From Alloscardovia omnicolens DSM 21503 (GTDB lineage Bacteria > Actinomycetota > Actinomycetes > Actinomycetales > Bifidobacteriaceae): a stretch of 64,000 nucleotides of DNA. Of this stretch, positions 12,505 through 18,181 are shown in pieces. Under the pieces are notes generated by a model, which made no database searches, was not told where the DNA came from, and worked only from the letters and a program-made list of their open reading frames with translations. Made by a program: the position numbers and the translations under genes. How positions within the stretch are numbered: the first letter of the stretch is position 1; each line of letters begins with the position of its first letter. Where the stretch lies: the NCBI RefSeq assembly GCF_000420505.1, contig NZ_ATVB01000008.1, positions 1-64,000 on the forward strand. The letters run 5' to 3'.

Positions 12505-12768
12505 ATGAAAATTACGCCAATTTTCGATCCTGAACATCGAAAAGCTACGCCACAGGCCGAGCAGGTAGATCTCCATATTATTTTTATGGTCGGTACTGCT
12601 CTGTGGCTGTGTGTTGCTCTCGCATGTGGCACGCTTTTCTTATGGAAAGGAGTACTGTATCACGAGTTTATTCTGACCATGTGGGGATTAGGAATTGGTG
12701 TAGCTGCAATGATTTGGGAAACCTATAATCGTCATATCTACCGACTGTTAGCCCTCATGCAGCAGTAA
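12505..12768 (+). CDS. Small two-helix membrane protein, DUF2530-like
   Basis: 87 aa with two transmembrane helices (about residues 25-47 and 53-72) and a short basic C-terminus. Its size, pattern (VGTALWLCVALAC...) and position between serC and the senX3/phoU locus resemble the actinobacterial DUF2530 family. Function unknown. It starts with ATG after a plausible AGTAGGA ribosome site and lies 41 bp behind serC, so the two probably share a transcript. Confidence 0.72.
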   Translation: MKITPIFDPEHRKATPQAEQVDLHIIFMVGTALWLCVALACGTLFLWKGVLYHEFILTMWGLGIGVAAMIWETYNRHIYRLLALMQQ

Positions 12769-12774
12769 AAACCC

Positions 12775-14037
12775 TTAAGCCAGCGGAATAAAGAAGTTAA
12801 AAGTACTTCCCTGTCCAGGAGCGCTCCACAAAGTTACAGTACCGTGATGCGTCAAAGCAACATGCTTAACAATCGCTAAGCCTAAACCAACAGCGTCATC
12901 ATCGTCAAACGGCTCAGTCGATCCGCGGTAAAAACGCTCAAAAATGCGTGTTTGCTCGGACTTACTAACGCCCTTTCCGGTATCAATAACGCGAATAACA
13001 GCAAAAGACGGATCTTGCGCAACATCTACCACAACACTGACCACAGCATTATCTTTGGAATAATGAATAGCATTTTCTACGAGTTTGCGCACAGCAGCGC
13101 AAATTTGTACGGAGCTAGCATGAACGCGAATAGAATCAGATATGCGTGCATGCAGCTGAATACCGCGCGTTGGAGTAATCGCGTTAAGCTCGTGCTGAAC
13201 AATCTCACCCAAATTCACCAAGTTCTCTTCGCTTGGCTCCACTCTTTCTTGAGCTTTCATGAGCAGCATAAGATCAGAAACTAACTTATGCAAGTGTCGT
13301 GCTTGAGCAGAAACAACCTTACCGTCTGCATTCACAGTGTCATCGGGCATTGACTCCCATCGCTTGCCGATAGAAAGCATATCGTCAGTGGAATTGATTA
13401 ATTGCTGTGCAACGTTTTCAATAAAATCATCGCGGGTTTGGGCGAAACGTTTTGTTTCACTGTTATTCGTAATAAAAACAACAATATAGTGCTCACTAAT
13501 AGCGCTGACAGTAACAGCCAGCCAGTGAGGTCGCGTAACGGGAACTGACGCTTCATCTTCATGCACAAGATCGTCTGCTGTATGCGTCACAACATTGAAT
13601 TTTTTCGTTCCTGCTCCAGCACGAATATCGTGAATAGCTTGCAGAATTTCTTTGTTCACAATTTCATCATTGTGAACGATTCCCCAGCGATATGTTGAAG
13701 ACGAAGCACGCTCCACTTCATCATCACCATCGACCACAATAGTGGCTGTATCCATGGCTGAAAGCACGCGAATAGTCATGGAATCGAGTTCGTCGTCATC
13801 ATCGTCATCGTCGTCATCATCATCGTCGATGGAATGGTTAATGCGACGGCGCAAACGTCTACGCCGCACATACTTCACACGCCATCCCAGTGAGCGCAAA
13901 GTATGCCAGAAGCCCTTACTATCCGCCACGAGCGGAGACAGCCATCTCCACGCTAGGGAGAACAGCCATCCCACGCAAATCACAGCCATCACAATAAAAA
14001 TAAGCAGTGCGACTATGGACGTTACATCAAAACTCAT
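12775..14037 (-). CDS. SenX3/PhoR-like sensor histidine kinase with substituted phospho-acceptor histidine
   Basis: About 420 aa from Met at 14037. Two-part layout: an N-terminal transmembrane helix (residues ~6-27), a basic juxtamembrane patch, a run of 12 Asp, a PAS-like sensor region, then the kinase core. The dimerisation region aligns as DDFIENVAQQL where SenX3-type kinases read RDFVANVSHEL, so the phospho-acceptor His is Gln211 and the following Glu is also Gln. ATP-binding boxes are intact: VENAIHYS (N), DTGKGV (G1), FERFYRG (F) and GLGLAIV (G2). It diverges from phoU, the SenX3-RegX3 phosphate-signalling setting, but no response regulator is adjacent. It may be a pseudokinase or act mainly as a phosphatase or binding partner. 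The start is uncertain because the ribosome site is weak. Confidence 0.85.
   Translation of the reverse strand: MSFDVTSIVALLIFIVMAVICVGWLFSLAWRWLSPLVADSKGFWHTLRSLGWRVKYVRRRRLRRRINHSIDDDDDDDDDDDDELDSMTIRVLSAMDTATIVVDGDDEVERASSSTYRWGIVHNDEIVNKEILQAIHDIRAGAGTKKFNVVTHTADDLVHEDEASVPVTRPHWLAVTVSAISEHYIVVFITNNSETKRFAQTRDDFIENVAQQLINSTDDMLSIGKRWESMPDDTVNADGKVVSAQARHLHKLVSDLMLLMKAQERVEPSEENLVNLGEIVQHELNAITPTRGIQLHARISDSIRVHASSVQICAAVRKLVENAIHYSKDNAVVSVVVDVAQDPSFAVIRVIDTGKGVSKSEQTRIFERFYRGSTEPFDDDDAVGLGLAIVKHVALTHHGTVTLWSAPGQGSTFNFFIPLA
13791..13830. repeat. Trinucleotide microsatellite encoding poly-Asp
   Basis: A GTC/ATC run on the plus strand (GAC/GAT on the coding strand) encodes 12 consecutive Asp in the juxtamembrane region of the kinase. 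Unit changes would keep frame and alter tract length. Confidence 0.85.
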
Positions 14038-14175
14038 ATCTCTATTGTGGCATATGCTGAGCCGAAACATTTGCGCCATCGAAAATGCAGCACGCGACAC
14101 CTCAAAAGACACGGGCATACTCTAAAATAAGACACAGTAAACGCCACACCACAAGCCATGTGTAAGGGAGCTGCC

Positions 14176-14862
14176 ATGCGCGCACTTTTCAATGAAGAAC
14201 TGCATCAAGTCGCTACAGATTTAACTACCATGACTATTGCCGTGCATAAGGCGGTAGAACGAGCTGGTGAGGCATTGTTTAACAACAATATTGAAGTGGC
14301 TCAAGACGTGATTGATGGCGACGCTCGTATTGACGCTTTGGAGGCTTCGATTAACAATCAGTGCGTTATTTTGCTCGCCAAGCAAAGCCCCGTTGCCACT
14401 GATTTGCGTGTGGTTGTGTCTACTATGAGCATCGCTTCCCTACTGGAACGCATGGGCGATTTAGCTCGCCATATTGCCGAAACGGCGCGAAGCACGTATC
14501 CTGAGTCTCCTCTGGCTCCTCAAGTCATGGATATTTTTGTGAAAATGCAGGCTTTTGCCCAGCGCACCACACAGACTTTGGTTGATTTAATGGATACGCA
14601 TGATGAAGTTGCCACACAAAAGCTCATTATGAGCGATGATGAGATGGATAAGCTTTTTGAATCTGTGTATGCCATTGCTCGCTCGGATGCGTGGAACGCA
14701 ACTGTTGAGCAGACGATTGATACTGTTTTGCTCAGCCGCTATTACGAGCGCATTGGAGATCACTCGGTGTCTATTGGCCGCCGCTTGATCTATATGGTCT
14801 CTGGTTTTGATCCAACAAAGGATCCGTCCCACTATATTGGCGTCGATACTGATGGCGATTAA
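14176..14862 (+). CDS. phoU: Phosphate transport system regulatory protein PhoU
   Basis: 228 aa, two PhoU helical repeats (about residues 15-100 and 120-205) with metal-binding-type E/D patterns (LLERMGDLARHIAET and YYERIGDHSVSIGRR). PhoU links the Pst transporter to the phosphate sensor kinase and represses Pho signalling when phosphate is plentiful. The start is set at ATG 14176, six bases after AAGGGAG; an upstream ATG at 14158 overlaps no such site. It diverges from the SenX3-like kinase, with a 138-bp shared promoter region. The pst genes are not in this window. Confidence 0.94.
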   Translation: MRALFNEELHQVATDLTTMTIAVHKAVERAGEALFNNNIEVAQDVIDGDARIDALEASINNQCVILLAKQSPVATDLRVVVSTMSIASLLERMGDLARHIAETARSTYPESPLAPQVMDIFVKMQAFAQRTTQTLVDLMDTHDEVATQKLIMSDDEMDKLFESVYAIARSDAWNATVEQTIDTVLLSRYYERIGDHSVSIGRRLIYMVSGFDPTKDPSHYIGVDTDGD

Positions 14863-14912: not shown

Positions 14913-16598
14913 TTACTTCTTTTTATACGCGAGTTCTAAGCCCAACTTTTTATCTTTGAACTTAGCTTTTTTCAGCGATTTCAGTACTGTTGACGATAAA
15001 TCAGTTGGTAACTCTACGTAGCTAACCGAATCTTTTAGCCCGATAGCGCCAATAACTTTTCCAGGGATATGCGCTTCGCTCGAAATAATGCGCACAATAT
15101 CGTTTGGACGAATACCATGCTTCTTGCCAAGGCTTATCTTAAAACGCACCATACCTTCTTCAACCTCTTCATTAACGAGGTGAAGTTTACGGTCTTTACG
15201 GTTTTTACGCTCTTTATATTCCTTGTGCTTTTTCTTGCCAGAACGTTTATCGTCATCCCACGGCATAACTTCATCGTCTGTCTGTTCGCGCGCGGTCTCT
15301 CCGTTATCTCCCGTTGCATCAAGCGCTAACTTTAAGAAAGCAGCAGCAATATCCATAGCCGTGTAATCAGAAGTATTAACTTGATTATCAATAACATCAA
15401 TCATGTCGTGAAGATTATCGTTCTCAATAGTGCGAGCGATATCATCCATGATTTTTTCAGTTTTAATAGCGTTAACATCAGCTATGGTTGGGATATGCTG
15501 CGATATGATTTTCGTTTTGCAGTACTTTTGAATATCTCGCAAACGATATACTTCTTTACCGCGCACAAAACTGAAAGCGCGGCCTGCTCGTCCCGCGCGA
15601 CCCGTACGACCGATGCGATGCACGTAATACTCAGCTTCGCGAGGAATATCGTAGTTAAAAACAGCTTCTACATCATCAACGTCAATACCTCGAGCAGCAA
15701 CGTCGGTGGCAATCAAAATTTCTGTTGTTCCTGTACGGAACTTTTTCATCACACGGTCTCGCGCAGACTGCTTCATATCACCATGCAAACCCTCAGCCAC
15801 GTAACCGCGCACCTGTAACTGCTCAGCTAAAGTATCGACCATTGCTTTCGTATTGCAAAAAACAAGCGATAATTTAGGGGAATAAAAATCAAGTAACCGC
15901 GTTAAAACGTCGGTTTTATCTTTGCGACGCACATCGTAATAATACTGATCGATTTGAGGAACAGTCAGCTCTGTTTGAGCAACCTGCACATGCTGAGCAT
16001 CATGCTGATATTTCTGCGCAATATCCATAATTGCTTGTGGCATAGTTGCAGAAAAGAGGATAACCTGACGGTTCTCTTCAGGCATCTGATCCAAAATCGT
16101 TTCGATGTCTTCGCGGAAACCCATGTTAAGCATTTCATCAGCTTCATCTAAAACAACGGTATGAATGCCTTGCGTTTCAATGGTTCCGCGACGCAAGTGA
16201 TCCATCACGCGACCAGGAGTGCCAATAATAATCTGCACGCCTTCCTTAAGACCACGAATTTGGCGAGCCATATCTGCCCCACCGTAGACCGGCAAAATGC
16301 GCACACCATGCATATATTTCGAGAGATGATGCAACTCTTGAGCAGACTGAATGACCAGTTCGCGCGTAGGAGACAGCACCAGCACCTGCGCACTACGCAC
16401 AGAAGCATTGACTTTTTCAAGAACCGGGATTCCAAAGGACGCAGTTTTACCCGAACCTGTTTGTGACTGACCAATAATATCGTGACCGCGCAAAATAACC
16501 GGAATGGCGGCTTCCTGAATAGGTGAAGCTTCTTCAAAACCCATATCGCTCACGGCGCGGAGCATGTGAGAGCTTAGACCTAATTCTTCAAATTTCAT
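14913..16598 (-). CDS. DEAD-box RNA helicase (CsdA/DeaD type) with C-terminal RNA-binding domain
   Basis: 561 aa. ATP-dependent RNA helicase; all core motifs are present: Q motif (FEELGL...SPIQEAAIP), SQTGSGKT, PTREL, GTPGR, DEAD, SAT, then helicase-C motifs ARGIDV and HRIGRTGRAG. A Lys/Arg/Glu-rich linker (about residues 440-465) leads to a DbpA-type RNA-binding domain ending in a lysine-rich tail. This architecture belongs to CsdA/DeaD-like helicases used in ribosome assembly and cold adaptation. It is a single-gene unit with the start at the Met before KFEELGL. Confidence 0.94.
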   Translation of the reverse strand: MKFEELGLSSHMLRAVSDMGFEEASPIQEAAIPVILRGHDIIGQSQTGSGKTASFGIPVLEKVNASVRSAQVLVLSPTRELVIQSAQELHHLSKYMHGVRILPVYGGADMARQIRGLKEGVQIIIGTPGRVMDHLRRGTIETQGIHTVVLDEADEMLNMGFREDIETILDQMPEENRQVILFSATMPQAIMDIAQKYQHDAQHVQVAQTELTVPQIDQYYYDVRRKDKTDVLTRLLDFYSPKLSLVFCNTKAMVDTLAEQLQVRGYVAEGLHGDMKQSARDRVMKKFRTGTTEILIATDVAARGIDVDDVEAVFNYDIPREAEYYVHRIGRTGRAGRAGRAFSFVRGKEVYRLRDIQKYCKTKIISQHIPTIADVNAIKTEKIMDDIARTIENDNLHDMIDVIDNQVNTSDYTAMDIAAAFLKLALDATGDNGETAREQTDDEVMPWDDDKRSGKKKHKEYKERKNRKDRKLHLVNEEVEEGMVRFKISLGKKHGIRPNDIVRIISSEAHIPGKVIGAIGLKDSVSYVELPTDLSSTVLKSLKKAKFKDKKLGLELAYKKK

Positions 16599-16667
16599 GT
16601 ATGTTCTTTCTGAGCAGACGCGAATATCGCATTACGCCTGCTGATGGAGTGTTTCTGGACAATAAAA

Positions 16668-16692
16668 AGGAACGCTATACTGTAGCGTTCCT
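16668..16692 (-). terminator. Terminator of the 16728 membrane-protein gene
   Basis: Perfect 10-bp stem AGGAACGCTA/TAGCGTTCCT; read on the minus strand it is followed by TTTTTATT. Confidence 0.9.
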
Positions 16693-16727
16693 GATTCTGA
16701 GATATTCAGTGGGATATTCAGTAAAGT

Positions 16728-17247
16728 CTACGAGCATTCTTTCGTAGTTCTAAGACTATCAGTATGACTGTATGTCTTTACTTTTCTGCGATAGGTATCT
16801 GCGATAGGTAAAAGTCTTCTCGTTTGAGCAATAAGACATGCAATAAACAAAGGAACTGCAGTCATCGCAACCCATGCAATAACCATGGCAGGATTACCCC
16901 CATGAAGAAAATGCGAAACCGTAAAAGGTAAAGCAAATCCAACTACTGCCTGCGCAATAGCAAGCCAAAAACTCACACGCAGATAAGTATTGAGCCGGCT
17001 GATGTTGAATCTCTTATACCAGACACTAAAACACCAAGATGTATAGATTACCCACACACAAATCGGGATAGGGATAAGCGCGCACAAACACAGGATTGGG
17101 GCGTGAATCCATTCATATTCAGGAAACTGCGAAAACTCATCTTGAATAACTGAAAACGCAGCCAATGTAACCCCGGCAATAGACAGAAGAGTAAAATACA
17201 GCACAAATTATAGTAAAAATGCTCGTTATTATTCTTTTATTGAACAT
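16728..17247 (-). pseudogene. Four-helix membrane protein (DUF2975-like) with apparent N-terminal frameshift
   Basis: The main frame (17204-16728, 158 aa from a GTG) has four predicted transmembrane helices and a basic tail. Its GTG lacks a ribosome site. A strong start, GAGGGG then ATG at 17247, begins MFNKRIITSIFT in the neighbouring frame, and removing one base in ATAATTT near 17207-17212 would fuse it to FVLYFTLLSIAG, completing helix 1. The gene is therefore probably disrupted by one inserted base, or the insert is a sequence error. Size and helix layout resemble DUF2975 proteins, but I see no diagnostic motif; the usual neighbouring small regulator is absent. Function unknown. Confidence 0.6.
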
Positions 17248-17443: not shown

Positions 17444-18181
17444 TTACTTACCCTGGTTTGCTACAGCTGCTGCACCTGCTGCTGCTGCTTCAGGATCGAG
17501 GTATTCACCGCGTGGCTTGATTGGCTTAAAGTTCTCATCCAATTCGTAGAGCAGTGGGATTGCAGTAGGAATGTTAACCTGTGCAATTTCGTCCTCGCTC
17601 AAGCCGTCGAGCATCTTTACGATTGCGCGCAGAGAGTTGCCGTGTGCTGCGATAAGAACTGTCTTACCTGCAGCAAGCTGAGGCTTGATTGTTTCTTCCC
17701 AGTAAGGGGTTACGCGAGTTACCACATTTGCCAAAGCTTCAGTTTCTGGAACGTCTGCGCCAGTATAGCGTGGGTCACCGTTCTGAGAGTACTGATCGTT
17801 TGGATCGATCTCTGGTGGTGGTGTTGCGTAAGAACGACGCCAAATCATGAACTTTTCGTCACCGTATTCCTGACGAATTTCAGACTTGTTCTTACCCTGC
17901 AAAGCACCGTAGTGACGCTCATTCAAACGCCAGTTGCGCTCTACTGGAATCCACAAACGATCTGCGGAATCCAAAGCAATATTTGCAGTGTTAATGGCAC
18001 GACGAAGAAGAGAAGTGAAAACGATGTCTGGAAGTACGTTCTTCTCCTTGAGAAGCTCGCCTCCTCGCTTTGCTTCTTCAACGCCCTGTTCGGTCAAAGG
18101 TACATCTACCCAACCGGTGAACTGGTTTGTCTTATTCCATGCGCTCTGTCCGTGACGGAGCAATACTAACTTGTAAGTCAT
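17444..18181 (-). CDS. gpmA: 2,3-bisphosphoglycerate-dependent phosphoglycerate mutase
   Basis: 245 aa; interconverts 3- and 2-phosphoglycerate in glycolysis. The phosphohistidine motif [10 protein letters not shown], the [14 protein letters not shown] active-site loop and the second His in AAHGNSLRA identify the cofactor-dependent enzyme. The C-terminus carries an Ala-rich tail ([14 protein letters not shown]) that is not part of the catalytic core. In many actinobacteria gpm lies near senX3; here the kinase lies about 4 kb away. Confidence 0.96.

Follow-up and report, generated by a model that had tools for sequence, protein, structure and literature searches.

Across the Bifidobacteriaceae, the SenX3-type sensor encoded beside phoU has lost its phospho-acceptor histidine, which is present in none of 146 aligned orthologues. 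The best explanation is that this protein is a family-wide pseudo-histidine kinase, that is, a SenX3 that was left beside phoU after the departure of regX3 and that works by protein contact. To this reading as a whole, which includes the view that the protein is kept by selection and stripped of its autokinase and phosphatase residues, a probability of about 0.55 is assigned.

The gene and its protein

The window is the whole stretch of 64,000 nucleotides from Alloscardovia omnicolens DSM 21503 that was analysed. The features of interest within it are the following.

12505..12768, plus strand: gene for an 87-aa protein, membrane-like by eye, convergent with the pseudokinase (kept as a neighbour at 139/141 loci)
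12775..14037, minus strand: pseudo-SenX3, a His-less sensor of the PhoR/SenX3 type, 420 aa (open reading frame, Pfam/NCBIfam, orthologues)
12778..13230, minus strand: CA (HATPase_c) domain (Pfam, alignment, model)
13252..13461, minus strand: DHp helical hairpin, residues 193-262 (model helices 193-228 and 233-262)
13402..13407, minus strand: codons of Gln211-Gln212, which replace the His-Glu of the H box (sequence and alignments)
13462..13782, minus strand: PAS-like domain, residues 86-192 (model and conservation; name and limits by inspection and by analogy with SenX3)
14158..14862, plus strand: phoU, divergent neighbour (TIGR02135 above cut-off)
17444..18181, minus strand: what we take to be the phosphoglycerate mutase gene (gpm; 124/141 loci), which in relatives belongs to a gpm-phoU-senX3-regX3 neighbourhood

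The frame of the pseudokinase is also open further, to 14118 (447 aa), but the ATG at 14037, which gives 420 aa, fits the N-termini of congeners better. Pfam HATPase_c matches the protein with 72.6 bits and, when its own genome is searched with this family, places it at the top of 14. By contrast, a HisKA (PF00512) search of the same genome detected kinases at four other places but did not detect this protein, and no HisKA match to the protein appeared in a Pfam search listed to E 10, in which the HMMER filters discard most matches above 0.1. The best 25 of 84 NCBIfam matches, every one far under its cut-off, were to sensor kinases, PhoR and PnpS among them. An alignment-based AlphaFold model (pLDDT 84.1) has a helix at the N-terminus, an alpha/beta part that is PAS-like, a DHp hairpin and a CA domain, and residue 211 sits within the first DHp helix (193-228); a single-sequence fold, at pLDDT 43.5, was set aside. 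The first 50 matches of a fold search include histidine kinases as well as DivL (4q20) and the complex of NifL with NifA (9qq6).

An acidic, Asp-rich linker (13793-13828), encoded by mixed GAT and GAC codons, joins the membrane segment to the PAS domain, and an Asp-rich stretch is seen as well in the consensus of 16 pseudokinase orthologues. A hydrophobic stretch was found in 108 of the 146 pseudokinase rows, which had been trimmed to 470 residues and to 110 before the PAS domain, and of which the remaining ones are uninformative on this point. Three genomes that are small and incomplete (about 0.7-1.0 Mb; G167-169; loci L271, L272 and L274) encode a pseudokinase with no membrane helix evident by eye; it adjoins phoU there, and the His site is occupied by Lys, Gln or Leu.

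Loss of the acceptor site across the family

In HisKA kinases, an acid follows the acceptor His (H+1), a Thr at H+4 serves phosphatase activity, an Asn serves for Mg, and an Arg of the ATP lid has a role in catalysis. These positions were compared in one alignment that brought together 71 SenX3 sequences from actinobacteria, 6 PhoR from bifidobacteria and 146 pseudokinases. The pseudokinases came from 150 genomes, of which G184 was omitted for a contig edge (it has Lys at the His site, by eye), and G132, G135 and G147 were not among the regions retrieved for the alignment. Similarly, of 98 loci from outside the family or from PhoR, 22 were omitted (21 more distant homologues and L358, where the match to the His is doubtful), four were used as PhoR rows, and one, L288, is a pseudokinase already counted as L090.

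Residues 211-212 of the window protein are Gln-Gln and align with the His-Glu of SenX3, just as a first-pass annotation of this DNA had proposed. It had also suggested that the site be aligned across Bifidobacteriaceae, and such an alignment shows that the loss is family-wide: position 211 is His in 0/146 pseudokinases, as opposed to 71/71 SenX3 and 6/6 PhoR. Sequencing error or an oddity of one species is thereby ruled out. Gln is the replacement in the window and, of the four congeners sampled, in one, whereas the norm of the family is Glu (E 114, Q 14, R 7, D 3, N 2, V 2, T 2, K 1, L 1). At H+1, where all 71 SenX3 and 6 PhoR have Glu, the pseudokinases have Gln (134), Arg (7), Phe (3) or Met (2) and never Glu. 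The Thr at H+4, present in 71/71 SenX3 and in all PhoR compared, is found in a single pseudokinase of the 146. Since both the acceptor and this Thr are missing, the protein would be expected to have lost the chemistry of a kinase as well as that of a phosphatase, and the loss of conventional autophosphorylation in the family is strongly supported by these comparisons. With no PF00512 match and no acceptor His in any of the 146 sequences, the protein lacks the HisKA domain of a SenX3/PhoR-type kinase; in having its His replaced across orthologues within a histidine kinase fold, it agrees with the pseudo-histidine kinases of the DivL kind.

The ATP boxes had been described as intact, which is true of part of them. 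The G1, F and G2 boxes are near-invariant, while the N box is half-kept and the ATP lid is remodelled. In detail, the second Asn of the N box, Asp352, Gly354, Gly356, Phe366, Phe369 and Gly384 are present in 146/146 pseudokinases, and Gly386 and Lys391 in 145/146 each. By contrast, the first Asn of the N box, found in all SenX3 and PhoR compared, is Lys in 139/146 and Asn in only 3/146, and Asp373, Arg376, Thr380 and Gly381 of the lid, invariant in SenX3 and PhoR, are retained in 22, 0, 1 and 4 of the 146, respectively. The conservation of the core of the pocket suggests that nucleotide is probably still bound, although the changes at the first Asn and in the lid could weaken that binding.

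Some residues are conserved in the pseudokinases and not in SenX3, for example Lys318 (139/146), Gln375 of the lid (138/146) and Trp172 of the PAS domain (143/146), which makes mere decay less likely. This Trp belongs to a stretch, 169-173, that reads R-x-N-W-L in the family (Arg169, Asn171, Trp172, Leu173); the window has His at 171.

Origin from SenX3

The identification as a SenX3-type protein, made initially from the sequence of a single gene, is borne out by synteny and by a tree. For instance, 229 genomes of the order from outside the family were searched, and the 14 best-scoring loci were read; in all 14, phoU lies divergently upstream of a SenX3 that bears the His, and the gene downstream is RegX3-like. 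Among the 98 loci from outside or from PhoR, the sole His-less match was the pseudokinase of B. simiiventris, L358 being doubtful. In a quick tree with SH-aLRT support (76 rows, including 30 pseudokinases chosen for spread), 27 pseudokinases form one clade (SH-aLRT 97), and a branch with a support of only 73 sets all 30 apart; those of the three small genomes are on a long branch. The pseudokinase group falls in the SenX3 group, and its order relative to the PhoR and SenX3 branches is not separated in this tree. Orthology with SenX3 is indicated by this position, by the phoU-senX3 arrangement of relatives and by the phoU neighbour at 139/141 loci. The two proteins share about 23-33% identity and the same order of domains (N-terminal membrane segment, PAS, DHp, CA). 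They differ in that the pseudokinase lacks the His, the Glu at H+1 and the lid Arg, has nearly always lost the Thr at H+4 and the first Asn of the N box, and has no RegX3 downstream.

Some bifidobacteria also encode a canonical pair. PhoR belongs to the same group of kinases, occurs in the same family of hosts and, as judged by PhoP, is found together with the pseudokinase in 97 genomes; its distribution among bifidobacteria is patchy according to passages of one study (PMC10329679). In contrast to the pseudokinase, PhoR keeps its H box and lies beside PhoP, the RegX3 orthologue: PhoP was found next to a His-bearing PhoR at 6/6 RegX3/PhoP loci read, four of which have pstB on the same contig, about 4-5 kb off. 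Two PhoR loci scored 217 and 202 bits to one outgroup SenX3, as compared with 107 and 129 bits to the window protein. At L284 and L287 (genus g6), PhoR appears to be on the strand opposite to that of the adjacent PhoP, unlike at the other four loci. Because PhoP lies beside a His-bearing PhoR elsewhere in these genomes, some species have probably kept the canonical function at another place, and it is the copy next to phoU that turned into a pseudokinase.

Gene neighbourhood

Neighbours were counted at 141 loci, that is, 140 regions of the family and the window. The position beside phoU, noted already in the first-pass annotation, is general: phoU adjoins the pseudokinase on the opposite strand at 139/141 loci, the exceptions being G059, where a contig ends, and G089, where the genes are at separate places. 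In G089 (L067, L276), a rearrangement split the pseudokinase from phoU, and both were retained. No response regulator was found among the neighbours of the pseudokinase in the window, as that annotation had also remarked, or at the family loci read.

The convergent 87-aa gene has no Pfam or NCBIfam family above cut-off, and it stays beside phoU in four genomes that have no pseudokinase. Between phoU and gpm, at 14913-17204, the window contains a DEAD-box helicase-like gene and a gene for a small membrane-like protein (names by eye); the former has a match at 5/141 loci, those of the genus of the window, and the latter at 2/141.

Distribution and co-occurrence

A search of 189 genomes of the family gave a pseudokinase orthologue in 150 (weakest accepted E 5.2e-29; others 2.8e-17 or weaker). 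In turn, phoU is present in 166/189 genomes and in 150/150 of those with the pseudokinase, so that no genome has the pseudokinase without phoU, 16 have phoU without the pseudokinase and 23 have neither (Fisher p 1.7e-19 with ancestry ignored, the counts not being independent of kinship). As 16 genomes have phoU and no match to the pseudokinase, PhoU does not need the pseudokinase. Five of these 16 loci were read: in four, the pseudokinase is cleanly absent between the 87-aa gene and phoU, and the fifth, G004, has a different arrangement. Clean absences that amount to natural knock-outs are seen at L267, L268, L270 and L275 (genus g4, that of B. simiiventris), for which a RegX3/PhoP orthologue was looked for and not found.

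A partner regulator, the search for which had been recommended, exists elsewhere in part of the family. With a cut at a best E of 1.5e-68 or lower (the next genome being at 6.0e-57), a RegX3/PhoP orthologue was detected in 97/189 genomes, all 97 of which carry the pseudokinase. It was not found in 53 of the 150 pseudokinase genomes, including the five sampled from the genus of the window. Of these 53, 46 are at least 90% complete, although some genomes are drafts and absences are therefore not certain. On the pseudokinase tree, the presence of RegX3/PhoP requires at least 10 changes of state. That the pseudokinase is kept where RegX3 is not found makes it unlikely that RegX3 is required for its general role.

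In the genome of the window itself, five OmpR-type regulators were seen, none of which passes the cut for a RegX3 orthologue; the best match is MtrA, on contig 29. Four of the five adjoin a HisKA kinase (L001-L004), and the fifth is this MtrA, which lies near a contig end; after it begins a membrane protein that is taken as MtrB by position. An orphan RegX3 was thus looked for elsewhere in the genome and not found. No two-component pair was present among the eight genes typed around the pstSCAB operon.

Selection on the pseudokinase

Open frames of at least 393 residues were seen at all 141 pseudokinase loci read, and 145/146 rows reach the C-terminal Pro. Against the 79%-identical congener G007, dN/dS was 0.125 for the PAS domain, 0.061 for the DHp and 0.136 for the CA domain, and for the same pair it was 0.081 for PhoU, 0.061 for SerC and 0.027 for Gpm; these ratios are rough because dS is large in this comparison, the one usable pair; saturation of dS affects the N-terminal part here, and likewise the comparisons with the three remaining congeners. 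In this pair, the dN of the pseudokinase is above those of PhoU and Gpm.

A proposed contact-based mechanism and its alternatives

In the reading preferred here, PhoU, the likely reporter of intracellular phosphate, would dock on the PAS/DHp part of the pseudokinase, and the CA domain would still bind nucleotide and set the conformation of the protein. The output would be a protein contact instead of a phosphoryl group, the signal presumably running from PhoU and nucleotide to contact with PhoU, with Pst or, in genomes that have the pair, with PhoR/PhoP. In the 97 genomes with RegX3/PhoP, the target could include the PhoR/PhoP pair. Since no RegX3/PhoP was found in 53 genomes, a role shared by the whole family would be carried otherwise, most simply via PhoU itself, for instance by sequestering PhoU or by setting its action on Pst transport. 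A fuller version of this scheme, in which SenX3 turned into a phosphotransfer-free, nucleotide-gated partner of PhoU and relays phosphate status (perhaps also energy status) by contact only, having outlived the regulator arm in several lineages, is put forward tentatively, at somewhat less than even odds.

By analogy, the nearest working model for the pseudokinase with PhoU may be NifL of Azotobacter with GlnK. NifL is a PAS-H-GHKL protein, matched by fold through 9qq6 among the matches listed, and it is not known to phosphorylate. Its GHKL domain binds ADP and probably also the nitrogen reporter GlnK, and it acts by complex formation, as described in parts of PMC8219145. In contrast to the pseudokinase, NifL has NifA as its target and GlnK rather than PhoU as its reporter, and it is distant in sequence. 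DivL of Caulobacter, 4q20 among the matches listed, likewise combines a lineage-conserved loss of the acceptor His with an otherwise recognisable histidine kinase core. However, it has Tyr in place of Glu or Gln, keeps other motifs and has DivK and CckA as partners; passages of PMC4211667 state that it binds an ATP analogue weakly, that its CA domain is dispensable and that a His-less kinase of this sort can act as the sensor of a partner. For SenX3 itself, sections of PMC12301784 report that, in Mycobacterium smegmatis, PhoU1 with Pi shifts the kinase into phosphatase mode and that the PAS domain is essential while location in the membrane is not.

A rather unlikely alternative is that the pseudokinase tunes a canonical kinase in the manner of DivL or ChrS, by forming a heterodimer with PhoR (SenX3) or by docking PhoP (RegX3). 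Excerpts of PMC9491836 provide a precedent in ChrS-Ala245fs of Corynebacterium glutamicum, an actinobacterial pseudokinase that acts through another kinase, although this is a laboratory-evolution mutant with a frameshifted CA domain in which the His is kept. The retention of the pseudokinase in 97/97 genomes with RegX3/PhoP would fit such a role, as would the more frequent Glu at the His site in these genomes (88/95 versus 25/46 where RegX3 was not found) and the residual identity of the DHp given that of PAS and CA (means of +0.027 for RegX3-positive pairs and -0.034 for negative ones). Nevertheless, phylogenetically independent pairs give no support to the association with Glu (sign test, median p 1), so that the link suggested by the raw counts was rejected, and the difference in DHp residuals is small within genus g5 (-0.006 versus -0.016). 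As these signals fade and RegX3/PhoP was not found in the 53 genomes, including those sampled from the genus of the window, modulation of a canonical pair is unlikely as the general role.

Improbable, too, is an unconventional kinase that phosphorylates at another residue or on a partner. Phosphorylation at some other residue is compatible with the sequence, and the near-invariant core of the nucleotide pocket would be expected of such an enzyme. The candidate for a moved acceptor is position 251 in the second DHp helix, which, counted along the modelled hairpin, is roughly level with the lost His. A conserved His elsewhere in the helix had been named in the first-pass annotation as evidence against its reading. 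Position 251 was checked in this respect and is His in 123 of the 146 pseudokinases; it is, however, Arg in 18 and Lys in 5, the latter including the window and its four congeners. Being basic in all 146, it is better understood as a charge position or charge partner than as a moved acceptor, and it was not adopted as one. Furthermore, the acid at H+1, the first Asn of the N box and the Arg and Thr of the lid, all present in the 71 SenX3, are gone.

There is still less reason to believe that the protein reads a signal other than phosphate, redox state or energy charge for example, and controls the 87-aa neighbour or the physiology of the cell, phoU being merely an inherited neighbour. Although the 87-aa gene is as conserved as phoU (139/141) and the PAS domain of mycobacterial SenX3 is reported to hold haem in parts of PMC12301784, none of the 150 pseudokinase genomes lacks phoU, and action of PhoU on SenX3 was demonstrated in a relative, M. 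smegmatis, in the same source. Finally, a functionless, decaying remnant, to which the many lost catalytic residues, the 16 phoU genomes with no match and the dN above that of PhoU and Gpm in the G007 pair might point, is the least credible reading in view of retention in 150/189 genomes, 141 open frames of at least 393 residues with 145/146 rows running to the C-terminal Pro, a dN/dS well below 1 in the one usable pair, and residues conserved specifically in the family.

Implications

The phosphate two-component system of B. breve UCC2003 has reportedly been the subject of an earlier study. No description of a family-wide loss of the His in the SenX3 beside phoU was found among the literature matches listed, mostly outside subscription journals, for bifidobacterial phosphate and two-component work, SenX3/RegX3/PhoU, pseudo-histidine kinases and actinobacterial His loss. 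The finding calls for caution with names, as a gene called a sensor histidine kinase or SenX3 by sequence alone may be no kinase. In phosphate signalling, the finding bears on how PhoU and its sensor kinase communicate and on whether PhoU has tasks beyond this dialogue. In the Bifidobacteriaceae, evolution has removed the residues for phosphotransfer and, in about a third of the pseudokinase genomes (53/150), apparently the regulator as well, and has kept the sensor and PhoU together.
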